The translations under genes were made by a program, and so were the position numbers. Below the pieces are notes generated by a model. The model saw only the letters and a program-made list of their open reading frames with translations, was not told where the DNA came from and did not search any database. Shown here in pieces: positions 2,156 to 20,648 of a stretch of DNA of 64,000 bases (its first letter is position 1; each line of letters opens with the position of its first letter). Source of the DNA: Minwuia sp. (GTDB taxonomy: Bacteria; Pseudomonadota; Alphaproteobacteria; Minwuiales; Minwuiaceae); assembly GCA_029210175.1 (NCBI GenBank), contig JARGPL010000037.1, positions 1-64,000 of the forward strand, written 5' to 3'.

Positions 2156-3910
2156 TCACGCCGTGTCGCGCACCCGCTGGATCACGGTGTCGCCCAGAAC
2201 GAGCACATCCATGTCGGTGCGCAGGAAGCAGTCCAGAGCCTCCTTCGGGCGGCAGACGACGGGTTCGTTTTCGTTGAATGACGTGTTGAGCAGCATGGGC
2301 ACGCCAGTCTGTTTCTCGAAGGCAGAGATCAGGGCGTGGTAGCGGGCGTTGGTTGCCTTGTGCACCGTCTGCAGGCGCCCGGAGCCATCGACGTGGGTGA
2401 CGGCGGGTATCCGGGCGCGGCGTTCCTCGCGAATCTGGAACACCTGCATCATGAAGGGGACATTGTCGTCCTCCTCGAACCAGTCCGGCACATGTTCCGC
2501 CATGATGGACGGCGCGAAGGGGCGAAAGCTTTCCCGCTTCTTGATCTTGGCATTCAGCACGGCCTTCATGTCGCCACGCCTTGGATCACAGAGGATGGAC
2601 CGGTTACCGAGGGCACGCGGCCCCCATTCCAGGCGACCCTGGAACCAGCCGATGACATTGCCCGCGGCGATCGCGTCGGCAGTGTGGGCGCAGAGTGCGG
2701 CCTCATCATCGAACGTGGTGACGGTGCAGCCGGCGTCGGCAATTTCCTGCTTGCCGCTGTCGAGCAGGGTCGCGACTTCGTCCGCGCCATATGCCGGACC
2801 CCAGTAGGCATGATCCATGACAAAACCGCGGGGTGCACCGCTGGCGTGCCAGGCGGCATAGGCGGCACCGATGGCACCACCAGCGTCGCCCGCAGCGGAC
2901 TGGATGTAGACTTCCTCATAGGCCGTCTGGCGGCGCACCTTGCCATTGGCGACCGAGTTCATGGCGCAGCCGCCCGCGAGGCAGAGACGTTTCAGGCCAT
3001 GCTTCGGCTGCAGCGTGTTGAGCAGGTTGAAGAAGGCTTCCTCGTACATCGCCTGTACGGAACGGGCGATGTCATGGTGGCGCTGTTCCAGCGGCAGCGA
3101 GGTATCGCGCAAGGGGCCGAGCAGGTCGGTCAAGGCGTCGGAGAACAGCTGCCCGACCTCCGGAATGCCATCCTTCCATTCGTACTGCACACCTTCCTTG
3201 TGGTGGCGGAAGTACTTCAGGTTCAGCTGGTAGCCTCCGTCACTGTCAAGCCGCACGATCTCGCGCATTTCATCCATCAGGCTGGGCTGGCCGTAGGGGG
3301 CGAGACCCATGACCTTGTATTCGTCGCCATAATGGCGGAAGCCGAGATACTGGGTCAGCGCCTGATAGAAGATGCCGAGCGAGTGGGGGAAATAGACCTT
3401 CCCCTGCATGTCGATGTCAGTACCCCGGCCAATGCCCCAGGCGCCGCTGGAGAAATCACCGAATCCGTCGACGGAAACAACAGTTGCTTCCTCGAACGGA
3501 GATACATGAAATGCGGACGACAGATGCGCCATGTGGTGTTCGATGTTGCGGATCTCGCCCCGGAAGGTCTCGCCGGGGAACGATTGCGCGATCAGTTCCG
3601 GCAATCCCTGGCGCTTGTGGCGATTGCGGATGCGGTCGAGGACCAGTTTCAGGTCCGGGCGCTTGCTGAGCACATAGCCGATCTTGCGCGGCAGGCTGAC
3701 CTTGCTGTCCTGATTGATGGCCAGCACGTCCACGTCGCCCAGCCCCACACCGGCCTCTTCCAGGCAGTAGCGGATGGACTGGGACGGGAAACCGGCCCAG
3801 TGCTTGATGCGGCGGAACCGTTCTTCCTCCACTGCGGCCACAAGCACACCGTCCCGGACAAGACAGGCAGAACTGTCGCCATGAAACGCGTTTACACCAA
3901 CAATGATCAT
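2156..3910 (-). CDS. carbamoyltransferase, NodU/CmcH/TobZ family
   Basis: The 584-residue protein has the full two-domain architecture of O-carbamoyltransferases, which move a carbamoyl group from carbamoyl phosphate, via a carbamoyl-adenylate, to a hydroxyl of a sugar or antibiotic. Visible motifs are GVNAFHGDSSA at 5-15, metal-site histidines in EHHMAH at 124-129, DGFGD at 148-152, YKVMGLAPYG at 198-207, GDAGGA at 341-346 and GRLEWGPRALGNRS at 425-438 in the YrdC-like part. The last strong gene of the polysaccharide locus, it overlaps the upstream GT by 4 bp, so it probably carbamoylates a residue of the same glycan. The acceptor is unknown. Confidence 0.9.
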   Translation of the reverse strand: MIIVGVNAFHGDSSACLVRDGVLVAAVEEERFRRIKHWAGFPSQSIRYCLEEAGVGLGDVDVLAINQDSKVSLPRKIGYVLSKRPDLKLVLDRIRNRHKRQGLPELIAQSFPGETFRGEIRNIEHHMAHLSSAFHVSPFEEATVVSVDGFGDFSSGAWGIGRGTDIDMQGKVYFPHSLGIFYQALTQYLGFRHYGDEYKVMGLAPYGQPSLMDEMREIVRLDSDGGYQLNLKYFRHHKEGVQYEWKDGIPEVGQLFSDALTDLLGPLRDTSLPLEQRHHDIARSVQAMYEEAFFNLLNTLQPKHGLKRLCLAGGCAMNSVANGKVRRQTAYEEVYIQSAAGDAGGAIGAAYAAWHASGAPRGFVMDHAYWGPAYGADEVATLLDSGKQEIADAGCTVTTFDDEAALCAHTADAIAAGNVIGWFQGRLEWGPRALGNRSILCDPRRGDMKAVLNAKIKKRESFRPFAPSIMAEHVPDWFEEDDNVPFMMQVFQIREERRARIPAVTHVDGSGRLQTVHKATNARYHALISAFEKQTGVPMLLNTSFNENEPVVCRPKEALDCFLRTDMDVLVLGDTVIQRVRDTA

Positions 3911-5022
3911 GAGCGGGCTTTCCTGATCGAACCGGAGTTGAGCGATGCATATAGGGTGAGAAACTGTTCCGCCACTGAATCCCAGCTGAACTGACTGCGA
4001 ACCAGGTCACGTCCCCGCTGGCCCATGGCCGTGCGGGTGGCGACGGGCAGGGATGTTGCCTTGTCCAACGCGGCTGCCAGGGCAGGGGCATCGTTGACCG
4101 GCACCCGCCAACCGCAGTCGATGCGTTCCAGATCCGGCCAGGGCACGCCCCGGGTCGTCAGCACGGGCACCCCGAACGACAGGGCCTCCGCCACCACCAT
4201 GCCGAAACTCTCCGAATGGCTGGGCAGCACGAACAGGCTTGCGGAATTCAGCAGGTCAGCCTTGGCCTGCCCGTCGACCGCGCCCAGCAGCCTGACGGAC
4301 CCGCCGAGATCAAGGCGCGTGATTTCCTTTTCCAGAACCGCGCGGTAGCCCGCTTCGTCCGGCCCTGCCAGCAGCAGTTCCCAGCCCTCCGGCCGGGTGT
4401 CTGCCCATGCCTGCAGTGCGGTGGGCAGCCCCTTAACGGGGTGCAGGCGACCGACGAATACCGCGGTTCGGATCCCGCCCGTTGCATTTTGGGGCGCGGG
4501 CTGGGCCACCGGCATGTCGATGCCGTTGGGGATGTTGGCAACCGTCACGCCCAGGTGACAGGCCGCCACATCCGCAGCCTCCGCGTCCGAGGTGGCATGC
4601 AGGGCTGCGGCAGTGGCCAGGTTGCGCCTCTGGTAAAGCAACCAGGCGACCCGCTTCTTCAGCCATTTGTGGCGAAGGGCCCACGGCGCAAGCATGCCCC
4701 GGGTGGATACCACACGGGGCCGGTCAAGGTGGGTCGCCATCCGTGTTACGGCCTGATTGTGAGGCAGCCAGATACCGCTGTCGTGGAACAGGTCGGGCGT
4801 GCCGAACGCGACAACGGCCGACCGCAGATCGCCAGCCAGGGGCACGATCCCGGGCATTGTGCCCTGTTCTCGCAACAGGTCGGAACTGACAGCCGATCCG
4901 TCAGGCGCCCAGATACCGACCTCCGCGCCGGCAAGCGCCAGGGCCTTCGCCAGACCGGACACCGAATAGGCCGGGCCACCGTATGCGCGTTCAAAGCTTG
5001 CTGATGCCAGGAGGAGTTTCAT
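3907..5022 (-). CDS. glycosyltransferase family 4
   Basis: A 371-residue GT-B fold enzyme. The N-terminus MKLLLASASFERAYGGPAYS gives the first beta strand and glycine-rich acceptor loop. The donor half starts near residue 185 (VFVGRLHPVKG) and contains the E-x7-E signature at E271 and E279 (ESFGMVVAE), typical of GT4 enzymes using nucleotide sugars. It should act at the cytoplasmic face, adding one sugar to the lipid-linked glycan. It starts 25 bp after the Wzy-like gene and overlaps the carbamoyltransferase start by 4 bp (ATGA), which supports translational coupling. Donor and linkage cannot be predicted. Confidence 0.85.
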   Translation of the reverse strand: MKLLLASASFERAYGGPAYSVSGLAKALALAGAEVGIWAPDGSAVSSDLLREQGTMPGIVPLAGDLRSAVVAFGTPDLFHDSGIWLPHNQAVTRMATHLDRPRVVSTRGMLAPWALRHKWLKKRVAWLLYQRRNLATAAALHATSDAEAADVAACHLGVTVANIPNGIDMPVAQPAPQNATGGIRTAVFVGRLHPVKGLPTALQAWADTRPEGWELLLAGPDEAGYRAVLEKEITRLDLGGSVRLLGAVDGQAKADLLNSASLFVLPSHSESFGMVVAEALSFGVPVLTTRGVPWPDLERIDCGWRVPVNDAPALAAALDKATSLPVATRTAMGQRGRDLVRSQFSWDSVAEQFLTLYASLNSGSIRKARS

Positions 5023-5047: not shown

Positions 5048-6439
5048 TCAGATGCGCCACTTCAGGAACTTGTAGGCAAAGATGTACATCACCACGATCA
5101 GCATCCCGGTCTTGGCGAGATGGTTGAGCACGACGACCAGCTCTGTCTCCGCCTTTGCCGCCTGCAGGAACAGCAAGGGTGTCCAGAGAATGACCGTAGG
5201 ATAACGGGTTGATGCCTTCATGATCCCTCTCAGGATCAATCCGAAGAAGGCCCCCACCGCCGCCATCATGATGATGCCATAGTAACCGAAATTGACCCAC
5301 GCCTCACCCAGGACACTGATGCCAAAGGAAGTCTCGCGGTTCACATAAAGGCCTGTGTAGTCACGAAAACCATCGGACACACTGACTTCGCGTTTCTCGA
5401 TCAGGATTCTGGGCACGAAGCTGTCCTGAATCGCCCTCAGGATTGTCTGTCCTTCCTCGAATGGATGTGCGGCAGGGACATAGGCCATCACCGAGCTGAT
5501 GATCCAGCCCTGGTTCAGTCGCGCGTTCAGCTTTCCCGTCTCATTCACGGCGGAATAGCCCTCACTCTCCTCGAAGATCGAGTTCTCCGTCATGGTCTCG
5601 TAGAGGGCCACAACGCCGGACTGCTCAGGATTCTTTCGGATGCGATCTCGATAGTCCGATTTGGCGGCCTGCAACTGCACGATGAGCAGAATCCCCAAGG
5701 CAAGCAGCAGCGCCTTCCTCAAGAACCCGAGCCGCAGCTCGGCGCATATGAAGGATGCGAGCAATGCGCTCCAAAGCAGGAGTGTGTGAAACAGGCTCTG
5801 GTTGATCGAACTAGATGCCAGAATTCCGAAAGTCACAATCAGTGCGATCCATCGATATTGCATTTTCAGCATGATCATGTAAATCACGGCGATAAAGCCG
5901 AACTGGCTGATCAAATAGACAAAAAATGCCAGAGGCCCTCGAATCGAACCACCAAGAACGGTGGTCATAATGCTGAAAATGATTACATAATATATGACCG
6001 ACTTGTCTATTGGCGGCACACTTTCAATATATTTCCGGACCTGTCCAAGAGATATGCGCGGAGCCAAGAATTTCATCGCAAAGATGAATGCAAGAGTTCC
6101 CGGCAAGACGAAGGAAAAATACGACGTTTCATCGACATACATGCGGTACTTGTACGTCACGGCGTCGTGGTAATATGCAAAGTAGGCACCAAGCAGCCAC
6201 TGGCCGGATGCGATTGTCGCAATCGCTGGCAAGATGGCCAATTCCTTGCCAAGCGAGTCGATGTACCAGACCAGCGAATAGGCAAACAGCCCGACACCCA
6301 TCGCGGACAGGATACCCGTCCCGGAAGCCGCGAGGGCGGTGGTCACAAGCAATCCGGCAAGAAGGGGCAGGATCTCAGACGCAATTGCATCATCCTGGTG
6401 TGGACGATAGGCCACGGAGTGCGTCGTTTCGTAGGTCAT
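5048..6439 (-). CDS. Wzy-like polysaccharide polymerase, membrane protein
   Basis: A 463-residue polytopic inner-membrane protein with roughly ten or more hydrophobic segments and a large loop at about residues 260-385. The loop carries features seen in O-antigen and oligosaccharide-repeat polymerases: RLNQGWIISSVM, then FVPRIL, then TSFGISVLGEAWVNFGYYG. Such enzymes join undecaprenyl-linked repeat units in the periplasm. The protein is divergent, as Wzy proteins always are, so the call rests on topology, these short motifs and the context among GTs. Its presence with an ABC exporter (Wzm/Wzt) is unusual. It overlaps the upstream GT gene by 4 bp. Confidence 0.65.
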   Translation of the reverse strand: MTYETTHSVAYRPHQDDAIASEILPLLAGLLVTTALAASGTGILSAMGVGLFAYSLVWYIDSLGKELAILPAIATIASGQWLLGAYFAYYHDAVTYKYRMYVDETSYFSFVLPGTLAFIFAMKFLAPRISLGQVRKYIESVPPIDKSVIYYVIIFSIMTTVLGGSIRGPLAFFVYLISQFGFIAVIYMIMLKMQYRWIALIVTFGILASSSINQSLFHTLLLWSALLASFICAELRLGFLRKALLLALGILLIVQLQAAKSDYRDRIRKNPEQSGVVALYETMTENSIFEESEGYSAVNETGKLNARLNQGWIISSVMAYVPAAHPFEEGQTILRAIQDSFVPRILIEKREVSVSDGFRDYTGLYVNRETSFGISVLGEAWVNFGYYGIIMMAAVGAFFGLILRGIMKASTRYPTVILWTPLLFLQAAKAETELVVVLNHLAKTGMLIVVMYIFAYKFLKWRI

Positions 6440-7623
6440 TTGCCGTCAACACCCCTTTCCATCGCGATCGACCGGACGGCCTGCTGTGTGGCAGCGCTTG
6501 CAGCCTGTATCGACCATTCTTCGCTGGCTGATGCAGCCATTGCGCCAAGTGCTTCCATTCGCGATCTGTCCCTGATCAGGTCGAGCATGGCATCCGCGAG
6601 TCGGTCCGCATCGCCGCAACGGAATACACGGCCATAAGGCTTGCCGTCCAGCAGATCGGGCGCACAGCCTGTCATGTCGCTGGCGATCGCCAGACATCCC
6701 GCGCTCAGTGCCTCATTCACGCCAAGGCCCCACGTTTCGAACACCGACGGCAGAACATATACATCTGCCATCATGTATGTCTCTGGCATTTCGCTCTGAT
6801 TGCGGAAGCCAAGGAAGTGAATGTTGGGCAATTCTGCGGATTGTTGCATCAAAGCCGCCCGGTCCGGCCCGTCGCCGGCGAGCACCAGGTGGATATCCTT
6901 CGCTGATTCCTGGGCCCTGGCGAACGCGGTGATCAGGACATCGACCTGTTTTCGGTAGACGAATTTGCCAGCAAACAGGAAGACAATTGCCGTGTCATCG
7001 ATGCCGAGCGCCTGCCGCGCATGCCGGGCGCGTTCCCTGGCCGCTGTGTCGGTGCTTGCAAATCGGTCGATATCGATCGCGTGCGGCATGGTCATGATCC
7101 GTCTGTCGGGGACACCCATGGTGCGCAGGTATTCCCTGTTGCGGATACCTGGCGACAAAGCCAGGTCGATATGCCGATAGACCCAGGTCAACAGCGGACG
7201 CCGCAGCCATCTCTTCCAGGCAGCCTGTTGTGATGAGATCAGGGTCGAGTCACCCCGGAAAAGCACTGGAATGCGACCATGAAAGTGACGCATGACCGCA
7301 AGGTTCGTCCGCCAAGCCCAGCCATAAACCAGAATGGCGTCTGGCGCCCAATCAGTAATCCGTTCAATCATCGCCGGATTATCGATGCCCCTGAAATGAT
7401 GCGTCCCGGGGTCATCCGATATGTTTTCCACCATTTGCCAGTCGTACCCGTCAAGCAATGGGATATCGAGTGTGACTGTCCGGTTGAACTCGTGATCCAG
7501 ACTGTTCGCCGTGCCTTCCCAGCAATAGAAGACCTGGATATCCAGGTCCGTTTCTGACGCAAGCGTGCGGAAGAGTGGCGCGTTGTACTGGATAGGATGG
7601 CTGGAAAGAATGGCAAGCTTCAT
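6436..7623 (-). CDS. glycosyltransferase family 4
   Basis: A 395-residue GT-B enzyme. It opens MKLAILSSHPIQYNAPLFR, a beginning shared by many capsule and O-antigen GTs. The sugar-donor half has FLFAGKFVYRKQVD, the central GDGPDRAAL loop and an E-x7-E type motif in FETWGLGVNEAL. It is expected in the cytoplasm at the membrane, extending the lipid-linked glycan. Overlaps of 4 bp on both sides place it inside the operon. Substrate unknown. Confidence 0.82.
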   Translation of the reverse strand: MKLAILSSHPIQYNAPLFRTLASETDLDIQVFYCWEGTANSLDHEFNRTVTLDIPLLDGYDWQMVENISDDPGTHHFRGIDNPAMIERITDWAPDAILVYGWAWRTNLAVMRHFHGRIPVLFRGDSTLISSQQAAWKRWLRRPLLTWVYRHIDLALSPGIRNREYLRTMGVPDRRIMTMPHAIDIDRFASTDTAARERARHARQALGIDDTAIVFLFAGKFVYRKQVDVLITAFARAQESAKDIHLVLAGDGPDRAALMQQSAELPNIHFLGFRNQSEMPETYMMADVYVLPSVFETWGLGVNEALSAGCLAIASDMTGCAPDLLDGKPYGRVFRCGDADRLADAMLDLIRDRSRMEALGAMAASASEEWSIQAASAATQQAVRSIAMERGVDGK

Positions 7624-8939
7624 GGGGTCTCCGCCGGGCGAGCGGCCTCCGCATCGCCACGGTTGCCGGTGATCTGGTCAAAGAAGTGCGCGATGACGGA
7701 TGTATGGAATGCGGCGGTATGCGCCTGAAAGGCTGTCCAGTCGGTGGTCGGCGGTGAAGGAGCCAGCAGTGCAGTCACAAGCATTCGGGTCATGACCTCC
7801 ACTGGCTCGCTGAGGTCATCAAGTTCTTCAAAGGAACAGATCTGGCCTGTCTGGGTGGCTTCCAGCAATGCGGCCGTATTGCTGTCCTTGCGCAGGATAG
7901 CGACGAGAGGTCGCCGGGCCATGATATACCCGTAAGCCTTCGACGCTGAATAGGCGGGGCTGTCTGCACCAATGATCATCAGGACATCGGCATCCAGCAG
8001 CAGGCGCAGAGCACCGAAATAGGGCTGGCGGTCTGTCCATTCGGTCACGATTTCCGAAACGCCCTCCTCCCTTGCGATGGGCATGACGGTTTCGTTACCC
8101 CGTCCGGCAGCGGCATAGCTGGTTCCAATGAATTCCAGCGACAGGCGTTCGAACAGATCCGGGTGCTCGGAGAGGCCACGCCTTGCCGCACGGAACAAGA
8201 TGCGCAACGCTGTTGTCATGTCGGGGCCCCGCGCGCCAACATACCGCAGCGATATCTTGCCGGGTCTGATCGGCTTGCTGACAGGCATCTGCAACGCAAC
8301 TTCGATGTCCCCAGGGGATGCCGCAAAGGGCAATGCCAGCGTGGGACGATCCTTCAGTGCAGGATAGCGTGACTGAACCGTGTCGATGTATTGGCGTGAC
8401 ACCGCCATGACACCAGCGGCATTCGGCATGGTCGCCGCTTCCAGGCGTGATTTCTGCCAATGATCGAAGCGGAATTTCCGCGGGCGTTCCTTGTTCGGCA
8501 GGGACAGATAATAGTCGTTGCGCCATGGGTCCTGCAGGTCGACCACGAAGGGCACGCCAAACTTTCGTTGCCAGTGGGGACCGTGTGCGATCGCCGTGAA
8601 GACAGTGGTCGTGAAGCAGATCAGGTCGACCGGATTGCTGGCCAGATAGTTGTCGACAGCGCGGCGCAGCTGGAACCATGAACGGAACCCCAGATTCCCA
8701 AGTCCCGCCAAACGAGTGAGACGCGGGCTGAATGCGTCCACGTGGTGGACGGGTACATCGGCGGGAACTGTCTCTGAAAGCAGGGGATCAAGTGACCCCT
8801 CGACCCTGTCAGGATCAATGGCAAAGACAACAGGATCCCAGCCGTTCTGGCGAAAATAGGGCAGACATTGTCGCAATCGGTGCATGTCCGGGGCGTTAAT
8901 CGGCGGGAAATGAGGGGAGATGAACAGGACCCTTCTCAT
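7620..8939 (-). CDS. glycosyltransferase, GT-B fold
   Basis: A 439-residue GT-like protein starting MRRVLFISPHFPPINAPDMH, with a basic N-terminal beta strand and the PPINAPDMHR acceptor loop seen in a subgroup of EPS glycosyltransferases. The middle has VVDLQDPWRNDYY, a motif common to the same subgroup, and the C-terminal part YSASKAYGYIMARRPLVAIL matches the donor-binding helix, though the classical E-x7-E is weak. It lies 9 bp downstream of another GT and overlaps the next gene by 4 bp. The specificity is unknown, and it could also be a non-enzymatic GT-fold protein. Confidence 0.72.
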   Translation of the reverse strand: MRRVLFISPHFPPINAPDMHRLRQCLPYFRQNGWDPVVFAIDPDRVEGSLDPLLSETVPADVPVHHVDAFSPRLTRLAGLGNLGFRSWFQLRRAVDNYLASNPVDLICFTTTVFTAIAHGPHWQRKFGVPFVVDLQDPWRNDYYLSLPNKERPRKFRFDHWQKSRLEAATMPNAAGVMAVSRQYIDTVQSRYPALKDRPTLALPFAASPGDIEVALQMPVSKPIRPGKISLRYVGARGPDMTTALRILFRAARRGLSEHPDLFERLSLEFIGTSYAAAGRGNETVMPIAREEGVSEIVTEWTDRQPYFGALRLLLDADVLMIIGADSPAYSASKAYGYIMARRPLVAILRKDSNTAALLEATQTGQICSFEELDDLSEPVEVMTRMLVTALLAPSPPTTDWTAFQAHTAAFHTSVIAHFFDQITGNRGDAEAARPAETP

Positions 8940-8948
8940 GCGCCACCC

Positions 8949-10196
8949 TCAGGCCAGACTTTCAAGATAGCCAGTGACCTGGCGTTGCAGGCGGTCCTTC
9001 GAGATTTCCCATGAGAAGTGGTGCAACAGTGCATCGACAGACGCCTTGCTGGCGGCCTGCCTTGCGGCAGGATTCTCGACCAGGGGACCAAGTGCAGCAG
9101 CCAGCGATTGGGCGTTCCCCTGGGCGAAAATCCGGACGGCATCAGGCGCGATCGTGGCAACTTCTGTCTGGCCCAGCGTATTGCTGGCCACGATCGCCTG
9201 ACCTGCGCGCATGTACTCGAAAACCTTGTTCGTGATGGTCACGTCGCGGCTGATGCAGTCAGAAAGTTCGCCACAGTATCCGATGTCGTGTTCGCTCAGG
9301 CGGGAAAGCAGTTCCGATTGGGGAACCTGAGGGTGGACGTAGATCAAATTCTTGATGGCGGCAGGCAGATCGGCGACCAGGTGCTCGATGAATCCGGCGC
9401 GCGGCGTGCCGCGCAGGTGGACTTCGACCTTGGAGGGCAGGAGCGGCAGCGCCGCGACCAGCGTTTCCAGTCCTCTTCCAGGCCCGATTGTCTGGGAGAA
9501 CCAGCATATCGACGGCAGGGTCCTGTTGTTCCGGTCCAGATTCCTGCCGTCGATATGGTCACGATCTCCGGTCGGAAAGCTGTTGTGGATGACCTCAGGC
9601 ATGGGGCAGCCATAGGCAGCCACAAGTGCATCAGCCATCGCCTGCGATGTTGCAGTGCTATGGACGGCATTGTTCAGCAATTCTGCTTCCGCGCGCCGCA
9701 TCAGTTTCACGGGACGCCTTGTCCGGTCGGTTGGCAGGCCGTCCTCTGTGTACCAGTCCTCGACATCCACCCGGATCTTGCGACCGTCCGCGAGCAACTG
9801 CTGCCCGACCCAAAGCGATTTCTCGAGATGCAGGCTGTAGAGATCGGCATCGATCGAACGCGCAGCGCGCAGCAGCGCGCCGGTATCATGGCCCAGCTGG
9901 AGTGGGTGTTCGAAACCGAACTTTACCAGTGCCTCACGCGCGGCACGGGCCTTCAGCCGCATCATGAAGTGGCGGAACAGGTTCACCGGCCGTCGGTCAG
10001 AGAGGTCCAGCACGGGAATGTGGTGCCATGGCTTGTTGCCCGTGATCTGCATTATGCGCGGCAGGTCAGCCAGGTTGTTGATCGCTGCCAGCACGGTCAC
10101 GTCATGCCCAAGTTCCGACAGCGCATCCGCTTCCTTGACCACACGCGGGTTATTGATGACCTGAAAGCCGGAAACGATGACTATCCTTCGCCTCAT
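8949..10196 (-). CDS. glycosyltransferase, GT-B fold
   Basis: The ATG at 10196 is chosen because it forms an ATGA overlap with the upstream methyltransferase and begins the first beta strand (MRRRIVIVSGFQVINNPRVV). Longer in-frame starts would run deep into that gene. The product is 415 residues with a typical GT4-like order: acceptor half with a DVEDWYTED segment, hinge at ICWFSQTIGPGRGLE, and donor half containing ITNKVFEYMRAGQAIVAS. It probably adds a sugar in the polysaccharide pathway. Donor unknown. Confidence 0.75.
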   Translation of the reverse strand: MRRRIVIVSGFQVINNPRVVKEADALSELGHDVTVLAAINNLADLPRIMQITGNKPWHHIPVLDLSDRRPVNLFRHFMMRLKARAAREALVKFGFEHPLQLGHDTGALLRAARSIDADLYSLHLEKSLWVGQQLLADGRKIRVDVEDWYTEDGLPTDRTRRPVKLMRRAEAELLNNAVHSTATSQAMADALVAAYGCPMPEVIHNSFPTGDRDHIDGRNLDRNNRTLPSICWFSQTIGPGRGLETLVAALPLLPSKVEVHLRGTPRAGFIEHLVADLPAAIKNLIYVHPQVPQSELLSRLSEHDIGYCGELSDCISRDVTITNKVFEYMRAGQAIVASNTLGQTEVATIAPDAVRIFAQGNAQSLAAALGPLVENPAARQAASKASVDALLHHFSWEISKDRLQRQVTGYLESLA

Positions 10197-11032
10197 CCGG
10201 CAGGTCGTGCAAGCAGGTGACACACCCTGAAATTTGTTGCCGTGATGCCGTCGATATCGGTCTGGATGACGCTGAGGCGGTAGCCCCGCTCGACCAGCCA
10301 CGCCTGGCAACGAGTCAGAAGATCGAATGAGTGAATTTCGATCAACAGCTTGGGCTTGTGTTCGCTGATCAGCTTGTCAGCGCCGCATAGCGCATCAAAC
10401 TCCGCCCCTTCGATATCGATCTTCATCATGGACGGTGGCGAGATCTCCTGGCGTGAGAGCATGCTGTCCAGCGACACGATCTGCACATCGATCGTGCGCT
10501 GCCCGCCGACCCCATCCTGGAAGGTAGAAGTGGACAATTTGCCCATGCTGGTCTCCGGCATGATCTCGAACGTTGCATTGCCGTCCTCCGCGCCGACGGC
10601 CATCTGCTTGACCGTCAGCGTCAGATCGGGATTGAGCCGGGTCAGCTGTCCGATGCTCTCGATATTGTCGGGGTTGGGCTCGAAACAGAAGACCTCTGAC
10701 GCACCGTTGATGGCCATGACGCCCGCGATGAATCCCCGGTGACTGCCGATGTCGTAGCAGACAGCACCTTTCTGCATTTCCCCGACCAGACATGTCGTGA
10801 CATCGAGCTCGCACGTACCTGTCCAGTATGCCTTGTCCTCAGGCAGCGTCAGCAGCATCTTCAGACCGCTTGCGGGCCCGGCATTGATGCGATGTTCAAA
10901 CGTTTCGCCGCTCATCGCGTTCCGAACCAGCCACCGCTGCAATCCGGCGACCACGGGAATCTTGCGGATATTGTCTCGAATTCCCCAGGGCAGCAGGTTG
11001 ACACTGCTGATCAGCATCCGTTTGAGGCTCAT
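10193..11032 (-). CDS. FkbM-family methyltransferase
   Basis: A 279-residue SAM-dependent methyltransferase of the FkbM type. The SAM-binding glycine motif is YDIGSHRGF at about residue 94, followed by the acidic strand VFCFEPNPDNIESI. Further on, PSMMKIDIEGAEFDAL is the IDIEGAE signature of the family. FkbM-like enzymes in such loci O-methylate sugars of the glycan, sometimes as a chain terminator; that role is an inference here. It overlaps the genes on both sides by 4 bp. Confidence 0.85.
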   Translation of the reverse strand: MSLKRMLISSVNLLPWGIRDNIRKIPVVAGLQRWLVRNAMSGETFEHRINAGPASGLKMLLTLPEDKAYWTGTCELDVTTCLVGEMQKGAVCYDIGSHRGFIAGVMAINGASEVFCFEPNPDNIESIGQLTRLNPDLTLTVKQMAVGAEDGNATFEIMPETSMGKLSTSTFQDGVGGQRTIDVQIVSLDSMLSRQEISPPSMMKIDIEGAEFDALCGADKLISEHKPKLLIEIHSFDLLTRCQAWLVERGYRLSVIQTDIDGITATNFRVCHLLARPAG

Positions 11033-12255
11033 TGCGTCATTTCCTTTTCCGCAGGCCAGGCCGATCCAGGTACTGAAAGCATGGCATCGATCCTGGCGAT
11101 ATTGCGAGGGTATGTATGTTCGAGAGCCAGCGCACGCCGCCGCATCTGGCGCTCCCGGCTGTTGTGCAGGGGCAGATCGCTGATGACCTCCAGGAACCGG
11201 TCAGGAAAATCCGCATCATCCGCCGCCTGGGCCATGACCATCAGGTCGGCATCGTCGGCGTAGATGTTCATCCGGGTGCTGATGACGGCTCTGCCCGTCG
11301 CGAAATATTCGAGGATCTTGTGGGCATTCGACCGGTCCGACTCGGCCGCATGATCCAGATAGGCAAGGATGAAGCAATCCATTTCCGATACCGCCTCGAC
11401 CAGCGCCGGTTTCCCCATTGCCCCGTGAAATACGCAGTTGGCAGACTCCCGCAGTGCGGAAGGCAAGGGTGAGTCCGGGCTGAACGGTCCCCAGAAATGA
11501 AACGAGATATTCGGGCAGCGGGCCACTGTTTCCGCAATCAGCGCCACATTGATGGTTCCCCGGTCCAGGTTCCCGAAATAGCCGCATCGGATTGTTTCAC
11601 CTGGCACATGATCCTGTACCGGTCTTGCCGCCAGAGCAGCGAAATCCGGGCCGATTCCATGGTTGATGACGGCGTTCGCCACACCCGGTGAAACAGATGT
11701 TGCAGACGACAGGATCTGCTGCGACACCGACAGGATCAGGTCGGCCGTGCGACCGATGGCGTATTGGCGCGGCGTGGTCAGCGGATCGACCGGGTGAAAG
11801 ATGGCGCGCCCGGCACCAAAGGCACGCAGATCAGGGAAAGTGTTGAAATCGAAGCACCAGACCAGGTCGAACTGCGTTCCCAGGCGGCGCACCAGCCGTC
11901 GCGCTTCCAGACCGATCCAGTACCGATAGAGCCCATGGGCATGGAACCGCAGCGCGCGCAGCACCCGAGGTCGCCAGGTCACGCGCACGACCCCCGGAAT
12001 GCCGGTGTCCTGCTGTCGGATGGTGCCGGGGGAAAGGGACCAGTCCGGAGGGTCGAGGAACCAGACGCTGTTTGATGATCCAAGGGCTTCCGCATAGTGA
12101 TGTTTCGAAATCGGCATGTGGTCCCACGGCTGCGGAGAGATCAGCAGGATCTGCTTGCCCGCCAGCCAGGAACCACGATGACCGGACTGTCCATGATCGA
12201 TGATGGCTTCAGCGCCCGACAGGCTGGGTCTTGAAGAAATCCGCGACCGCGTCAA
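11029..12255 (-). CDS. glycosyltransferase family 4-like (start uncertain)
   Basis: GT-B protein with first strand KQILLISPQPWDHMPISKHH, hinge TIRCGYFGNLDRGTIN and a donor half containing SNAHKILEYFATGRAVIS. The first ATG after the upstream gene (12117) would delete the first beta strand, so the real start must be earlier. Options are a TTG at 12255, overlapping the aminotransferase gene by 47 bp behind a CAGGCGACGG stretch, or a CTG at 12165. I list the TTG. The gene overlaps the FkbM methyltransferase by 4 bp. Substrate unknown. Confidence 0.7.
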   Translation of the reverse strand: MTRSRISSRPSLSGAEAIIDHGQSGHRGSWLAGKQILLISPQPWDHMPISKHHYAEALGSSNSVWFLDPPDWSLSPGTIRQQDTGIPGVVRVTWRPRVLRALRFHAHGLYRYWIGLEARRLVRRLGTQFDLVWCFDFNTFPDLRAFGAGRAIFHPVDPLTTPRQYAIGRTADLILSVSQQILSSATSVSPGVANAVINHGIGPDFAALAARPVQDHVPGETIRCGYFGNLDRGTINVALIAETVARCPNISFHFWGPFSPDSPLPSALRESANCVFHGAMGKPALVEAVSEMDCFILAYLDHAAESDRSNAHKILEYFATGRAVISTRMNIYADDADLMVMAQAADDADFPDRFLEVISDLPLHNSRERQMRRRALALEHTYPRNIARIDAMLSVPGSAWPAEKEMTQ

Positions 12256-13318
12256 CGACCGTCGCCTGATCAGCCTCTCCCAGGAACGGATGCAGCGGCA
12301 GCGACAGGATCTCGGCCGCATGGGCATGCGCCACGGGGAAATCCGCCGGACTGTGGCCCAGATAGTCGTAAGCCGAATAGAAGGGGAGGGCACGCGGGTA
12401 GTTGATCACCGTCGGCACGCCGGCCTGTGACAGGTGTGTCTGCAGCGCATCCCGATGGGCCGTGCGGACGACATAGAGGTGATAGACGTGGCGCGCGCCG
12501 GGTCGCTGCTGCGGCAGGATCAGGTCACCGATGCCCGCCAGCATCTCGTCATAACGTTCGGCCACGGCGCGACGGGCTGTGTTCCAGTCCTGCAGATGCG
12601 GAATCTTGACGTTCAGGACGGCGGCCTGCAGCCCGTCCATGCGGCTGCAGATTCCTTCCATGACATGGTTGTTCTTGCCGCCATGCCGGGCGAACAGGGC
12701 AGCGAATTCGGCGATGTCACCGCGTTCGGTGATCAGGCAACCCGCGTCGCCCATCGCGCCGAGGTTCTTGCCGGGATAGAAGGAGAATGTGGCGACATCA
12801 CCGAAGCGCCCGACCTGCTGCCCGTCCAGTTCTGCCAGATGCGCCTGGGCACTGTCCTCGATCAACCAGAGCCCATGCCGGTCGCAGATTTCGCGCAATG
12901 CCGCGATGGCTGCAGGCTGGCCATACAGATGGACAGCGACCACGCCCCTGGTGCGGTCGGTGATCTTCGCCTCCACCTGTGCCGGGTCGAGGCAGAAGTA
13001 GGCGTCTTCGGTATCGGCAAAGACGACGCGCGCGCCAGTCTGGGTGATGGTTTCACTGGTGGCGATCCAGCTGTGGGCAGTGGTGATGACCTCATCACCC
13101 GGCCCGGCACCCAGCGCGCGAAGCGAGATGTACAGCGCATCCGTGCCATTGGCGCAGGACACGCAGTGCTTCGCCCTGGTCAGTTCGGCGAAATTCCGCT
13201 CGAACCCGTCCACATCCGCCCCGCGAATGAAGGCGGAGGTATCGATGACGCGGGCGATCTCGGCATTCAGCCTGGGCTGCAGACTGTCGTGCAGCGCCTT
13301 CAGGTCCACGAACTGCAT
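12209..13318 (-). CDS. wbpE: DegT/DnrJ/EryC1 sugar aminotransferase, WbpE-like
   Basis: A 369-residue PLP-dependent aminotransferase of the DegT family. The PLP lysine is K184 in SFYPGKNLG, the ring-binding aspartate is D155 in IEDSAQAH, and NGTDAL at 57-62 binds phosphate. The family transaminates keto-sugar nucleotides. Beside a WbpB-type oxidoreductase and a WbpD-type acetyltransferase, the likely reaction converts UDP-2-acetamido-3-keto-glucuronate into the 3-amino sugar, using glutamate. The ATG directly follows the stop of the acetyltransferase gene. A perosamine-synthase role, paired with the GDP-mannose dehydratase of this locus, is a weaker alternative. Confidence 0.8.
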   Translation of the reverse strand: MQFVDLKALHDSLQPRLNAEIARVIDTSAFIRGADVDGFERNFAELTRAKHCVSCANGTDALYISLRALGAGPGDEVITTAHSWIATSETITQTGARVVFADTEDAYFCLDPAQVEAKITDRTRGVVAVHLYGQPAAIAALREICDRHGLWLIEDSAQAHLAELDGQQVGRFGDVATFSFYPGKNLGAMGDAGCLITERGDIAEFAALFARHGGKNNHVMEGICSRMDGLQAAVLNVKIPHLQDWNTARRAVAERYDEMLAGIGDLILPQQRPGARHVYHLYVVRTAHRDALQTHLSQAGVPTVINYPRALPFYSAYDYLGHSPADFPVAHAHAAEILSLPLHPFLGEADQATVVDAVADFFKTQPVGR

Positions 13319-13783
13319 CTATTTCTCTCCCCCCATCAGGCGCGCAGGATTGCCGACATAGAAACCCGGTTCGGAAATATCCTTCGTGACCACCGCGCCA
13401 GCGCCGATGACGACGTCGTCGCAGATGCTCACCGGCATGATCGTGGCGTTGGTCCCGATGGATACCCGATCGCCAATGCGTGTATGGCCCCACTTCGTCC
13501 GGTCGCCGCGTGCCGGGCCGCCAGCGGAGAAGCTGTCATTGATGAACATGGCCCCATGGGAGACGAAACAGTCCGCACCGATGGTGACCAGTTCGCAGAT
13601 GAACGCATGGGACTGGACGCGCGTGCGGTCACCGATGACCGCCCCGGCCTGAATTTCCACGAACGGGCCGACAAAGCAGCCATTGCCCAGGGTGCAGCCA
13701 TAGACATTGGCGGGTTCGACAATCGTCACGCCCTCGCCACAGGTCACATCGCGGATGCCAACCGACTTCAGGTCAGGTGCCAT
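13319..13783 (-). CDS. wbpD: hexapeptide-repeat N-acetyltransferase, WbpD-like
   Basis: A 154-residue left-handed beta-helix acyltransferase. Imperfect hexapeptide repeats run through most of the protein (for example IGDRTRVQSHAFI and IGTNATIMPVSICDDVVIG) and the conserved end VGNPARLM is present. An insert around FINDSFSAGGPARGDR fits the catalytic loop of the sugar N-acetyltransferase group. It would acetylate the new 3-amino group of the uronic acid with acetyl-CoA. It overlaps the oxidoreductase gene by 11 bp and abuts the aminotransferase gene, giving the order B-D-E. Confidence 0.8.
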   Translation of the reverse strand: MAPDLKSVGIRDVTCGEGVTIVEPANVYGCTLGNGCFVGPFVEIQAGAVIGDRTRVQSHAFICELVTIGADCFVSHGAMFINDSFSAGGPARGDRTKWGHTRIGDRVSIGTNATIMPVSICDDVVIGAGAVVTKDISEPGFYVGNPARLMGGEK

Positions 13784-14804
13784 GCTTTGCCGCCCGATAG
13801 ATCTTGTCGATGATCTCGACGGTCTTCAGCCCCTCGAACCCGATGGTGCCGATGGAGCCTTCCGCCGTCAGCACCTTCTGGATGTTCTCGTACACATCCT
13901 CATGGTTTGACATGGAGCCCTGATAGGCGCCGTATTCGTTGGCCGGGCGTCCTTGCCTCAACTGTGATGCATCCATGCCCTGGATGTTCTCGTATTCGAT
14001 CTCGTTCAGGTACTGGCCACCGATCTTGATCGTGCCCTTCTCGCAGAACAGGGTCAGCGACCCCTCCATGTTCCGTCCAAAGCTGTTGATGGTGAAGCTG
14101 ACGCTGCCGATCGCACCGCTGTAGAAGCGCAGGATGGCGACGCCCGCATCCTCGAACTCGACCGAGTCGCCGTGGCAGTAGTTGTCCATGAAACTGGCCA
14201 CATCCTGCACGTCACCGGCAAGCCAGTAGAGCAGATCGATGAAGTGGCTGAACTGGGTGTAGAGGGTGCCGCCGTCCATCGCCAGGGACCCCTTCCAGCT
14301 GTCGGCGTAATAGGCGTCGTTGCGGTTCCAGAAGCAGTTCAGATGCACGCTGTAGATCCGCCCCAGCGCGCCCTGGTCCAGCAGGTTCTTCAGGTGTTCG
14401 ACGGGCGGGTTGTAGCGGTTCTGCTTCACCAGGAAGAGGCGACGGTTGGCCTTCTCGCCTGCCTTGATCATCTCTCCGCACTCATGAACGGTCAGGGCCA
14501 TCGGCTTCTCGCACAGCACGTGATACCCGGCCTCGAATGCCTTGATCGTGTGTTCCGCATGCATGCCGTTCGGGGTGCAGATAGCCACCACGTCGCTCTT
14601 CCCGCGCATGCCTTTCAGCATGGCATCGAAGTCCGTGAAGACTTCTGCGCCGCTTTCCTCTGCAGCGCTTCGTGCCTTTTCCTCCACCACATCGCAGACC
14701 GCCGTCAGGCGCCCGAACCTGGGGGCGTGGCCGGCATGGCGCTGGCCGATACGACCGCAGCCGACGATGGCGAAACCGGTGCTGTTGGGGGATACCTGCT
14801 GCAT
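13773..14804 (-). CDS. wbpB: Gfo/Idh/MocA oxidoreductase, WbpB-like
   Basis: A 343-residue NAD(P)-dependent sugar dehydrogenase. The Rossmann motif is IVGCGRIGQRHA near residue 13 and the family motif CEKPMAL near residue 98. The segment FLVKQNRYNPPV closely resembles WbpB-type UDP-2-acetamido-2-deoxy-glucuronate 3-dehydrogenases, which make the 3-keto sugar that a WbpE-type enzyme transaminates. The gene starts 38 bp downstream of the HisF-like gene. No UDP-GlcNAc 6-dehydrogenase (WbpA) is in the window, so the uronic acid precursor must come from elsewhere. Confidence 0.8.
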   Translation of the reverse strand: MQQVSPNSTGFAIVGCGRIGQRHAGHAPRFGRLTAVCDVVEEKARSAAEESGAEVFTDFDAMLKGMRGKSDVVAICTPNGMHAEHTIKAFEAGYHVLCEKPMALTVHECGEMIKAGEKANRRLFLVKQNRYNPPVEHLKNLLDQGALGRIYSVHLNCFWNRNDAYYADSWKGSLAMDGGTLYTQFSHFIDLLYWLAGDVQDVASFMDNYCHGDSVEFEDAGVAILRFYSGAIGSVSFTINSFGRNMEGSLTLFCEKGTIKIGGQYLNEIEYENIQGMDASQLRQGRPANEYGAYQGSMSNHEDVYENIQKVLTAEGSIGTIGFEGLKTVEIIDKIYRAAKHGT

Positions 14805-14842: not shown

Positions 14843-15634
14843 TCAGGGCGCGCCGTCGGTCGGCCCGAGGTGGTTGAACAGGCCTTCACGCAGGACGGTC
14901 TGGCTGGGGTAGTTGACCAGAACCGCGCGGTGCGGGCCCTTGAAGACAAATTGCGCGCCAGCCGCAACGGCCGAGGCGCCTGAATCGCGGATCGCGTTCA
15001 GGAAGTCTGGAATATCACGTGCGCCGCCGCTGGCAATGACTGGCACCTCGACCGTTTCCGCGATCTGCCGGATCAGGTCAAGATCATATCCGTCGAAGGT
15101 GCCGTCGCGGTCCACGGCGGTCAGCAGGATCTCACCCACCCCCGCCGCAACCACGCGCCTGGCCACGTCGAGCACCGATCCGGGGACCTTCTTCGTGCCG
15201 CACTGCGTGACGACCCTTGGGCCCCCGAACATGCCCTTCTTGACATCCAGGCTGGCAACCACGGCCTGTGCGCCATAGATGCGCCCGATCTGAGCAGGCA
15301 GGTCAGGGGTCTCGAACAGGGCCGTGTTCAGCACGACCTTCTCGACCCCGGCGTCAAACGCCTGCCTGGCGTGGTCCAGGGTGCGGATGCCCCCGCCATA
15401 GCCGAACGGGATGAAGCATTCGCTGGCGATTTCCCGCAACATCCCGAAATCCGGGGCCTTGCCTGATTTTGCGACTCCGATGTCGAGCAGCATCAGTTCA
15501 TCGACTTCCTTGTCGCTGAAGATCTTCACCGTGTTGACAGGGTCGCCGACGTAGGTGCGCTTGCCGAACTTGATGGTCTTCACCAGGCGTCCCTGTTCGA
15601 TCAGCAGCGTGGGAATGACGCGGACGCGCTTCAT
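14843..15634 (-). CDS. hisF: HisF-like cyclase subunit of a sugar amidination system
   Basis: A 263-residue (beta/alpha)8 protein of the HisF family. The ends of the barrel are intact (FGYGGGIRTLDHA, LLTAVDRDGTFDGYD, IASGGARD) and the second catalytic aspartate lies in VVASLDVKKG. The first catalytic aspartate, Asp11 of Thermotoga HisF in the ACLDVKDGR strand, is replaced: this protein reads PTLLIEQGR. It is therefore unlikely to make imidazole glycerol phosphate. With HisH next to it and a WbpG-type protein upstream, it probably channels ammonia for amidine formation on a sugar, like HisF2 of Pseudomonas O-antigen loci. It overlaps the HisH gene by 4 bp. Confidence 0.85.
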   Translation of the reverse strand: MKRVRVIPTLLIEQGRLVKTIKFGKRTYVGDPVNTVKIFSDKEVDELMLLDIGVAKSGKAPDFGMLREIASECFIPFGYGGGIRTLDHARQAFDAGVEKVVLNTALFETPDLPAQIGRIYGAQAVVASLDVKKGMFGGPRVVTQCGTKKVPGSVLDVARRVVAAGVGEILLTAVDRDGTFDGYDLDLIRQIAETVEVPVIASGGARDIPDFLNAIRDSGASAVAAGAQFVFKGPHRAVLVNYPSQTVLREGLFNHLGPTDGAP

Positions 15635-16272
15635 TCCACGCCTGCCTTTCCTTCGGCGAAGTTCCGCAGCAGGGTCATGCCGAAGCGGTGGCTCTTTTCC
15701 GGGTGAAACTGCACGCCCAGCATGTTCTGGTGCGTGACGGCGGCGCAGAAATCATAGCCATGGTGGGCCGTTGCGGCCACGTCCGCAGGATCATCACAGA
15801 CCATGTGAAATGAATGCACGAAGTAGAACCGCGGAGGATCTTCGTGGAAGCCATGCAGGGCGGTTTGCGGCTGTTTCACGTCCAGATTGCTCCAGCCCAT
15901 GTGGGGTACCCGATCGGTGGGGGACAGCCGGGAGCGGTCGAAAGCCAGGACATCAGCATCGATCCAGCCGAGACCGGGCAGTTGGCCCTCGTCACTGCGC
16001 CGCGCGAACAATTGCATGCCGACGCAGATACCCAGGATTGGCACGCCATCGCGCCGGACGCGCTGGTCCAGTGCCTCCGCAATGCCCTTGGTCCTTATGC
16101 TCTCTGCCCCGTAATCGAAGGCGCCGACGCCGGGGAAGACGATCCGGCCTGCAGTCAGGATCTCCTCGGCCTCCGACGTGATGGTCGACCTGATCCCCAG
16201 CTTCTTCAGCATGTTGCGAATGGATGCGGGGTTGCCGCAGCCATAATCGACGATGGTTACAGGGCCGGTCAC
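15631..16272 (-). CDS. hisH: HisH-like glutamine amidotransferase subunit
   Basis: A 213-residue class I glutaminase. The nucleophile is C83 in ILGICVGMQLF, and the His and Glu of the triad are H190 and E192 in GVQFHPEKS. The oxyanion segment VFPGVGAFDYG is present. It releases ammonia from glutamine for the HisF-like partner encoded immediately downstream. The pair sits between a WbpG-type amidotransferase gene and wbpB, with no other his genes, so a role in histidine synthesis is unlikely. It overlaps both neighbours by 4 bp. Confidence 0.87.
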   Translation of the reverse strand: MTGPVTIVDYGCGNPASIRNMLKKLGIRSTITSEAEEILTAGRIVFPGVGAFDYGAESIRTKGIAEALDQRVRRDGVPILGICVGMQLFARRSDEGQLPGLGWIDADVLAFDRSRLSPTDRVPHMGWSNLDVKQPQTALHGFHEDPPRFYFVHSFHMVCDDPADVAATAHHGYDFCAAVTHQNMLGVQFHPEKSHRFGMTLLRNFAEGKAGVE

Positions 16273-17414
16273 CGCACGACCCGCTTTGCCAGGTTGAACG
16301 CACCGCGCAGCGGCTTCAGCAACGGATAGGTTTCATAGACGGACCGTTCCACGGCGTAATCGGTATGCGGGCGCGGTTCCGCCTTCATGATCGCGTCGAA
16401 TTCGTCGAGCGTGAAACCCAGTTTCTTGGAGACGAAAATGCGGTCTTCTTCCATCTGCTCGGGGTCGTAGGGCGGCTCATCCAGTTCGGCCAGCGCCGCT
16501 TCCTTGGTCATCTGACCGGCGTAGATCAGGTTGGTCAGGTGCGCCTTGCGCTTGTCCACGCCGAATTTGCGGGGCAGGATGTAGCCTTGGTAAAAGCGGG
16601 TGAAGATCGATTCATGGTGCTTGCCGCCATAGTCGCGCCAGCCAAGTTCATCCTGAATGCGCTGTTTCACCTCGGCCTTGTCATAGGGCAGCAGGTTCAG
16701 GATCGAGTGGGATTGCAGTCCCCGGAACATCTGATCCCACTTCTTCAGCTTCAGCGACATGAAGGGATAGGTCTTCAGCGGCACCTCGCCGAACGCCGCG
16801 TGAATGGCCTTGATGTTCACGTGGTCGTTCTTGGCGTAGTTCCAGTGCGGGGGCATGACGAATTCGGTCACCACGTTCGTGCCGCTGAGGATGTGCCTGA
16901 TGCCATGCTTCGCTGCCAGCCGATACAGCAGGGCAAAGACGGCGTGATCCGACACGACCTCGATATCGATGACGGACGCCTTCAGGTGCGCCCGCTGCAG
17001 GTCGCGGAACTCGCTCCAGTCTATGACATGGGTATGCAGATCGATGTCCAGGCGACTGACGATCTGTTCGATGTTCTGGACCGCCAGTTCCGCGTTCCAG
17101 CCGTTGTCGAGATGCACGGCCAGCGGACGCAGACCCAGACGTCGCGCCTGAATCGCCACGAATGTACTGTCGACACCACCGCTCAGCCCCATGATGCAGT
17201 CGTAGGGCTTGCCCTTTCCGTCCCGCTTGATCTGTTCGGCGAGGGCCTGAAGCATGGCCTCGCCTTCTGGTCCGTTGTGAACCAGCTCGGCTTCGGCTTT
17301 CCTGTAGTCGTGGTAATAGTGCGACCGGCCCTCATCATCGAAGCGCATGTCCGGGTCGTCACGCGTGTCCAGCACACCGATGCTGCACTGGCGGTAGTTC
17401 GGGATCAGCGGCAT
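16269..17414 (-). CDS. wbpG: N-acetyl sugar amidotransferase, WbpG-like
   Basis: A 381-residue PP-loop ATPase; the loop is SGGVDST at 78-84. Later segments TNVVTEF and HWNYAKNDHVNI fit the WbpG/PseA family, which adenylates an acetamido group and swaps it for an acetamidino group with ammonia from HisH/HisF. The ATG at 17414 lies 13 bp after the upstream GT; longer starts would run into that GT. Odd feature: family members I know begin with two Cys pairs (CxxC, then C-x-x-C after a DTSDP-like motif). Here the region reads QCSIGVLDTRDDP then SHYYHDY, so three of the four cysteines appear to be missing. Confidence 0.83.
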   Translation of the reverse strand: MPLIPNYRQCSIGVLDTRDDPDMRFDDEGRSHYYHDYRKAEAELVHNGPEGEAMLQALAEQIKRDGKGKPYDCIMGLSGGVDSTFVAIQARRLGLRPLAVHLDNGWNAELAVQNIEQIVSRLDIDLHTHVIDWSEFRDLQRAHLKASVIDIEVVSDHAVFALLYRLAAKHGIRHILSGTNVVTEFVMPPHWNYAKNDHVNIKAIHAAFGEVPLKTYPFMSLKLKKWDQMFRGLQSHSILNLLPYDKAEVKQRIQDELGWRDYGGKHHESIFTRFYQGYILPRKFGVDKRKAHLTNLIYAGQMTKEAALAELDEPPYDPEQMEEDRIFVSKKLGFTLDEFDAIMKAEPRPHTDYAVERSVYETYPLLKPLRGAFNLAKRVVR

Positions 17415-17427
17415 GTTGGTTTCACTC

Positions 17428-18708: not shown

Positions 18709-18758
18709 TGCTATCTGCTCTCAGTCCGCACGCCGACAGACGAAAGATGCAGCGAATT

Positions 18759-19640: not shown

Positions 19641-19781
19641 CTGTGTTCCTCGGTCCTGCGATTTTCAGGTATCGGCACGGTCCCAGACTGTACTGCCCTG
19701 AACGTCTGACCGACCGCATCGGGCTGTCCAATCATGTCTCCAGAACCTACGTGGAGGGCGGTTCTCAAATAGGCAATTCTC

Positions 19782-20636: not shown

Positions 20637-20648
20637 CAGAACTGCCCG

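Follow-up and report, generated by a model that had tools for sequence, protein, structure and literature searches.

Glycans are polymerised in the periplasm in Wzx/Wzy pathways and in the cytoplasm in ABC pathways, and a locus of Minwuia sp. (order Minwuiales, Alphaproteobacteria) raises the question of what a Wzy-like membrane protein, here called WZY, can do in an operon whose exporter is the ABC pair Wzm/Wzt. The window, that is, the whole stretch of DNA analysed, comprises 64,000 nucleotides of contig JARGPL010000037.1 (assembly GCA_029210175.1), and its base 1 is the beginning of the contig.

The operon and its conservation in Minwuia relatives

WZY (protein P0001) is encoded by a single open reading frame at 5048-6439 on the minus strand and is a multi-pass membrane protein of 463 aa; the plus strand over the same positions is different from the WZY gene. 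The gene belongs to a co-directional chain running from 31333 to 2156, in which neighbours overlap or are spaced by at most 141 bp; in particular, WZY and the glycosyltransferase gene upstream of it share 4 bp at the WZY start, and Wzm and Wzt lie in the same chain about 20 kb upstream. Pfam and NCBIfam scans of the window genes gave 11 glycosyltransferases in the operon, together with modification genes including a carbamoyltransferase, an FkbM methyltransferase, a HisH/HisF/WbuX amidation set, and genes of amino-sugar synthesis. The features, in the direction of the chain, are as follows:

27480..30516, minus strand: GDP-mannose-dehydratase-like gene, GT4 glycosyltransferase (GT_K), and epimerase gene
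26590..27477, minus strand: Wzm, ABC-2 permease (PF01061; 83-87% identity to three relatives)
25289..26590, minus strand: Wzt, ATPase with C-terminal carbohydrate-binding domain (PF00005 and PF14524)
23453..25288, minus strand: AsnB, asparagine-synthase-like amidotransferase, without orthologue in the loci of the three relatives
17428..23451, minus strand: one GT4 and four GT2 glycosyltransferases and a nucleotidyltransferase
14843..17579, minus strand: HisF2-type, HisH, and WbuX genes, the sugar amidation set
12209..14804, minus strand: DegT aminotransferase, small putative acyltransferase (label inferred), and Gfo/Idh dehydrogenase (the outer two named by profile)
11029..12393, minus strand: GT_E, glycosyltransferase
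10193..11032, minus strand: FkbM-type methyltransferase
8949..10310, minus strand: GT_D, glycosyltransferase
7620..8939, minus strand: GT_C, glycosyltransferase
6436..7623, minus strand: GT_B, GT4 glycosyltransferase, overlapping the WZY start and strongly variable like WZY
5048..6439, minus strand: WZY, polymerase-type Wzy-like membrane protein, 463 aa (loop 270-375; conserved R264, R307, R344, K349, and E379)
3907..5022, minus strand: GT_A, GT4 glycosyltransferase, directly downstream of WZY
2156..3910, minus strand: carbamoyltransferase, the final operon gene

The DegT, small, and Gfo/Idh genes are likely devoted to amino-sugar synthesis. Just upstream of the operon and on the same strand, an acyltransferase-SGNH fusion at 31753-33741, which has no counterpart among the genes listed for the relatives, is likely to function in glycan O-acetylation. 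Among the versions of the locus, that of the window genome alone has the GT2 gene at 19782-20636 and the AsnB-like gene; three other genomes (G068, G363, and G286) also have AsnB-like genes close to their ABC exporters. Beyond the end of the operon, the two open reading frames scanned in 1-2155 gave no Pfam match, and in the relatives the genes past the carbamoyltransferase have no link to glycans, as judged by inspection of their translations.

As the sequence-only reading had stated, no Wzx was seen: the Pfam and NCBIfam scans found no such protein in the window genes that they covered. In the operon the same scans recognised neither a Wzz nor an initiating transferase, and no donor-lipid synthase or small modification-type flippase was recognised there.

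The occurrence of a Wzy-like multi-pass gene inside a wzm/wzt operon, the starting claim of that reading, was confirmed by the exact reading frame, the co-directional chain, and the syntenic homologues of three relatives (G004, G005, and G008). These homologues have about 50-54% identity to WZY and occupy its position, always flanked by the two GT4 genes. From an HTH gene to the carbamoyltransferase their operon keeps largely the same order apart from some relocated genes; such conservation and synteny rule out a chance reading frame. WZY is present in four of the nine genomes of the order, all of one genus. A Wzm of the Minwuia type (83-91% identity) is found in the WZY-bearing genomes and in G006, whose contig ends inside Wzt, and the genomes G003, G007, and G002, with Wzm matches of only 30-31%, have no WZY. 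Four homologues in named records are labelled Minwuia sp., Minwuia thermotolerans, Thalassobaculaceae bacterium, and Kordiimonadales bacterium IMCC3096. Spread by plasmids or viruses was also considered and found no backing, since P0001 had no match in viral contigs or plasmids and none of four WZY relatives had a match in plasmids.

Family placement and predicted structure of WZY

P0001 matched no Pfam or NCBIfam model at E<=0.1, PF04932 included, and since no curated model was matched above its cut-off, the protein is named Wzy-like here and is not assigned to TIGR04370 or PF14296. Three of its relatives (L086, L117, and L122) match TIGR04370, the 'oligosaccharide repeat unit polymerase' model, below the cut-off, and L086 also matches PF14296 below the cut-off; L117, encoded in G128, matches NF046084 at 51.5 bits against a cut-off of 420 bits. 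A four-sequence WZY profile found 10 genomes at E<=0.01 among 398 genomes of the phylum, and a 13-sequence profile found 17 of the 385 genomes in the class at E<=0.001. One weak hit in the class, in G134 (L005), was discarded as a WZY relative because the matched stretch reads as an importer or periplasmic-binding-protein region.

The kinship emerges from profile-profile comparison. The five Minwuia-group WZY proteins align with eight remote Wzy-like proteins with a probability of 99.5% (E 9.8e-23) and with seven TIGR04370-hit proteins with 96.7%, a value that falls to 42.4% (E 2.6e-4) when the bridging sequences L058 and L059 are removed. The latter set holds 7 of the 13 loci found with TIGR04370, with L055, L057, L061, L062, L063, and L064 omitted; some of their frames read as other proteins or fragments, and L057 was moved to the Wzy_C set. 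In hhalign, the Minwuia group scored 0.1-0.2% against three Wzy_C/WaaL sets and 0.15% against ten Wzx, with reversed controls at 0.0-0.2%, and a 27-member WZY profile scored 0.8-1.7% against the Wzy_C sets, although such low scores do not prove an absence of kinship, because two true Wzy_C sets score 1.4% against each other in the same test. The 'Wzy-like motifs' of the sequence-only reading thus hold by profile-profile comparison and find no counterpart in the curated models.

The alignment of the 27 members shows conserved R264 (25/27), R307 (23/27), R344 (26/27), K349 (26/27), and E379 (25/27), and no histidine conserved in at least 80% of the rows; 12 Wzy_C proteins share two arginines (11/12 and 12/12) and a histidine (12/12). 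According to a 2024 study of these enzymes (PMC10920833), one clan unites the ligases with FtsW/RodA-type enzymes and with a group of inverting polymerases, and nearly all those polymerase families carry Asp/Glu at the position of the acceptor-activating His of ligases. In one weak sequence alignment, E379 falls a few residues off this position. By profile comparison WZY belongs with the polymerase-type Wzy proteins, a placement from which its activity is predicted. The clear grouping with O-antigen ligases by which the sequence-only reading would have been refuted was not seen, there being neither Wzy_C/WaaL profile similarity nor a conserved His; these same observations rule out an ordinary ligase as a family assignment, and a ligase function is weighed separately below.

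Sequence searches for relatives of known structure were negative: with P0001, phmmer returned matches no better than chance (E 0.1), and the 13-sequence profile had none up to E 10. A first model of WZY, built from four sequences, was poor (pLDDT 39.8), and a model from 27 sequences reached a pLDDT of 77.5 and a pTM of 0.81, with a long loop (270-375) near the C-terminus that bears conserved basic and acidic residues, as in Wzy topology. With this model Foldseek returned nothing at E<=0.001. The longest matches near the top of the structural comparison, among unrelated helical proteins of similar Z, were FtsW (8bh1_A, Z 6.6, 5.7 A over 233 residues) and WaaL (7tpg_B, Z 6.2, 5.9 A over 241 residues), both below the tool's safe level. 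The model agrees with a predicted glycosyltransferase of the FtsW/WaaL fold class, and the comparison with WaaL that the sequence-only reading had proposed gave scores that do not separate polymerase from ligase.

Joint divergence and changes of exporter

In the Minwuia group Wzt combines a conserved and a variable half. Between the window genome and the three relatives the ATPase part is 87-90% identical and the binding domain 20-31%; over the four genomes together the respective ranges are 87-95% and 16-50%, as if the C-terminal binding domain had been swapped among them. WZY and GT_B vary as well. For the pairs G004-G005, G004-G008, and G005-G008, respectively, identities are 70%, 62%, and 65% for WZY, 16%, 50%, and 16% for the Wzt binding domain, and 55%, 77%, and 56% for GT_B. 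Two GT2 genes are 72-78% identical in the pairs with G005 and the remaining rows of this comparison are at 79-99%; between G004 and G008, the other 22 rows are at 85-98%. GT4_F, GT2_H, and AsnB, window genes without orthologues in all three relatives, are omitted from it.

Controls for this divergence are provided by proteins of the same genomes encoded elsewhere. The window genome has four Wzy_C matches and one Wzx-type flippase on another contig (C27, 4030-4794), its sole PF01943 and PF13440 match; the genome search for wzx suggested by the sequence-only reading thus yielded a candidate outside the locus. Among the relatives this flippase is 95-97% identical, the Wzy_C of contig C12 94-96%, and that of C24 86% (G005-G008); the C24 Wzy_C is also low against the window genome (61-63%), so the contrast rests on the three relatives. 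A counterpart of the C27 flippase (69%) occurs in G003 and G007, genomes without the WZY locus. The C12 cluster (17264-23154) encodes a PF02397 initiating transferase, two Wzy_C, and a Wzz/kinase-type protein, and its Wzy_C recurs across the genus; it suggests that a Wzx-dependent pathway is present in the genome. On the simplest reading of this joint divergence in sequence, a variable part of one glycan would be handled by all three of WZY, GT_B, and the Wzt binding domain; for a ligase, variation in step with the core and the reducing end would be expected.

The exporters beside WZY were then compared in 20 WZY-bearing genomes, searched with Wzt_C and PF13440; PF01943 was applied to ten genomes, namely eight with more remote WZY, the window genome, and G068. 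An additional, purpose-built profile of 11 Wzx sequences missed the Wzx of G038 that PF01943 finds, and absences by this profile were not used. WZY lies on the same strand as Wzm/Wzt and within about 21 kb of them in 5/20 genomes (the window genome, G004, G005, G008, and G068), a proportion that lacks a proper background rate because the genomes were chosen for having WZY. In three genomes (G680, which has an additional weak Wzt_C match elsewhere, G128, and G038) a Wzx is located no more than about 24 kb from WZY; in five, Wzt is located elsewhere in the genome (G393, G399, G405, G363, and G286), and in the other seven neither exporter was seen near WZY (G390, G542, G435, G409, G382, G305, and G216). 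Three of the last (G382, G305, and G216; loci L118-L130) belong to one genus, and each of these genomes has three WZY-like genes, of which one lies in a cluster rich in GT4 genes and without a recognised exporter in its vicinity.

In G068, a member of another family, a 29.6 kb contig carries in order AsnB, Wzm, Wzt, glycosyltransferases, GT_B, WZY, an acyltransferase, GT_A, and the carbamoyltransferase, with identities to Minwuia of 32% for GT_B, 39% for GT_A, and 66% for the carbamoyltransferase; hence GT_B, WZY, GT_A, and the carbamoyltransferase accompany Wzm/Wzt in both. The tool estimates this genome to be 100% complete; it gives no match to PF01943 and a single one to PF13440, which is MurJ. 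In G680 and G128, homologues of GT_C, GT_B, WZY, GT_A, and FkbM or the carbamoyltransferase stand alongside Wzx, the set of G128 being split over two neighbouring stretches. Matches to GT_A, GT_B, and GT_C reach 144-255 bits in these two genomes and do not exceed 69 bits in 11 control polysaccharide regions selected irrespective of WZY (the C12 cluster and 10 regions surrounding flippase matches). In the WZY tree, G068 groups with G680, G128, G393, G399, G405, G363, and G286 (support 100/99) and a single clade of Minwuia and G068 WZY is rejected (p-AU 0.0017), the G068 branch being long. Since the shared set adjoins either Wzm/Wzt or Wzx and the tree joins G068 to G680 and G128 among others, the neighbouring exporter has changed in the history of the set, which points to an exchange of exporters around shared glycosyltransferase and WZY genes within Alphaproteobacteria.

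WZY also occurs away from ABC loci. G393 and G399, of another class, have a Minwuia-like locus (L155-L158; Wzm 63-64%, Wzt 54%, GT_D 47%, GT_K 47%, DegT 65-67%), in which the DegT, Gfo, and AT genes are 64-67% identical to those of Minwuia; these identities suggest that the locus was transferred as a whole. WZY has no match within the 40 kb read around this ABC locus and stands alone, far away. In G363 and G286, a Wzm/Wzt cluster includes homologues of GT_B, GT_C, and GT_D, a Wzy_C, and a PF02397-type gene, and WZY is elsewhere. A fifth close homologue (L075, 1118-2506) stands by itself on a 3.6 kb contig of a metagenome-assembled genome labelled Thalassobaculaceae, between unrelated aldehyde dehydrogenase-like and YihY-like genes named by eye. 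Orphan genes of this kind are equally compatible with a ligase and with a polymerase gene that has left its locus; for Salmonella, Klebsiella, and Enterobacter, displacement of wzy or wzx has been proposed (PMC5867348).

Possible roles of WZY and comparison with known systems

The favoured reading, given slightly less than an even chance, is a hybrid ABC/Wzy pathway in which WZY polymerises the glycan exported by Wzm/Wzt. About 11 glycosyltransferases would build a large undecaprenyl-PP-linked unit in the cytoplasm, Wzm/Wzt would export this glycan block in place of Wzx, WZY, a putative periplasmic polymerase-type glycosyltransferase, would join the exported blocks, and a separate ligase would then attach the joined blocks; the activity and substrate of WZY, the block size, and the export of short blocks instead of finished chains are all predictions. 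The family placement, with a conserved Glu and without the ligase His, argues for this pathway, as do the exporter exchange between Minwuia/G068 and G680/G128, the joint divergence of WZY, GT_B, and the Wzt binding domain in genomes with a conserved flippase and conserved Wzy_C, and the presence of the C27 flippase in two genomes that lack the WZY locus. However, P0001 matches no polymerase model, WZY is outside the ABC locus in four genomes and alone in L075 (usual for a ligase, possible for wzy), Wzt retains a C-terminal binding domain as in ordinary ABC pathways exporting finished chains, neither Wzz nor an initiating transferase was recognised in the operon, a Wzx-type flippase is encoded elsewhere in the genome, and the Z scores for FtsW and WaaL are close. 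Among the three options left by the sequence-only reading (a ligase, a polymerase for a second glycan, and a hybrid pathway), the exporter exchange and the joint divergence favour the hybrid, and the other two retain smaller shares of probability.

The strongest competitor, with roughly one chance in four, is an unusual ligase or other transferase in an ordinary ABC pathway, which would take the completed glycan after its ABC export off undecaprenyl-PP and attach it to lipid A-core or a different acceptor. Each ABC or Wzx pathway needs such an enzyme, which would explain WZY beside either exporter as well as the orphan genes, and the match to WaaL (7tpg) is long; but the Wzy_C profile scores and the missing His speak for another family, the window genome already has four Wzy_C matches, the Wzy_C of another genome, G680, matches the putative-ligase model TIGR03097 below its cut-off, and the divergence that WZY shares with a glycosyltransferase and the Wzt binding domain is not seen in the Wzy_C proteins of the three relatives. 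It is improbable that WZY polymerises the unit of a second glycan flipped by a Wzx elsewhere, e.g., that of C27, and shares with the ABC pathway only the operon and glycosyltransferases: the genome does have a PF01943 flippase and the C12 cluster, and eleven glycosyltransferases could suffice for two glycans, but G068 keeps the same arrangement with no genomic Wzx profile match except MurJ, and the C27 flippase is highly conserved where WZY is not and persists in the WZY-less G003 and G007. The addition by WZY of a branch or terminal block to the ABC-exported chain, without chain polymerisation, would also explain the joint divergence and the tolerance of either exporter, and extracytoplasmic modification of exported glycans is known (PMC11127046); nevertheless, the family ties of WZY are to repeat-unit polymerases and neither a donor-lipid synthase nor a modification-type small flippase was recognised in the operon, so that this role appears less probable again, and some quite different role would be a considerable surprise.

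Returning to the hybrid pathway, a broader proposal, advanced with slightly more reserve than the pathway itself, is a further mode of glycan assembly: large lipid-linked blocks would be delivered by Wzm/Wzt in the role of Wzx and joined by a periplasmic Wzy-type enzyme, the exporter beside one conserved glycosyltransferase-Wzy set would have been exchanged in the course of alphaproteobacterial history, and one variable block end would be recognised both by WZY and by the Wzt binding domain. If one glycan uses both halves, export and polymerisation modules would be exchangeable, against the textbook split; it would then be understandable how an ABC exporter could cope with very large repeat units, and the flipping of short blocks by Wzm/Wzt would become testable. 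If WZY is instead a ligase, it would be one without the usual His, which would also be new.

With the Wzy proteins of TIGR04370/PF14296, WZY shares the multi-pass topology, the long loop near the C-terminus, conserved Arg/Lys and Glu, and profile-profile similarity; unlike them, P0001 and its closest homologues reach neither model and the exporter of the operon is Wzm/Wzt. The model NF046084, an exosortase Y-associated Wzy-like protein, is matched by L117 far below the cut-off and not by P0001. In Wzx/Wzy pathways a Wzx is expected in the locus, and the Minwuia cluster has none; its amidated amino-sugar set resembles that of the O-antigens of Pseudomonas aeruginosa, which are Wzx/Wzy-made. As in the ABC (Wzm/Wzt) O-antigen pathway, Wzm, Wzt with a binding domain, glycosyltransferases, and sugar synthesis genes are united in one operon, to which Minwuia adds a polymerase-type Wzy-like gene and as many as 11 glycosyltransferases. 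Rhizobium etli, which uses an ABC exporter for a complex O-antigen, is a possible counter-example to an argument from glycosyltransferase number. For the ABC-made O-antigens known up to 2015, PMC4483657 gives repeat units of one to three kinds of sugar.

In the open-access literature searched, with subscription papers outside its scope, no locus with Wzm/Wzt and Wzy and without Wzx is described. An ABC exporter standing in for Wzx is exemplified by Helicobacter pylori Wzk, which restored O-antigen in an E. coli wzx mutant (PMC2841628). Wzk, like PglK in this comparison, differs from the Minwuia exporter: it is a single MsbA-like protein, and the Minwuia exporter consists of two separately encoded ABC-2 subunits, Wzm and Wzt, and includes a binding domain; no Wzy was found in H. 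pylori, and the Minwuia operon has WZY. A related arrangement is the Yersinia enterocolitica O:7/O:19 locus, where wzm/wzt, wzx, and wzy occur together, a combination left open in the corresponding passage of PMC11380512; it shares wzm/wzt and wzy in one locus with Minwuia and, unlike the Minwuia and G068 loci, also has wzx.
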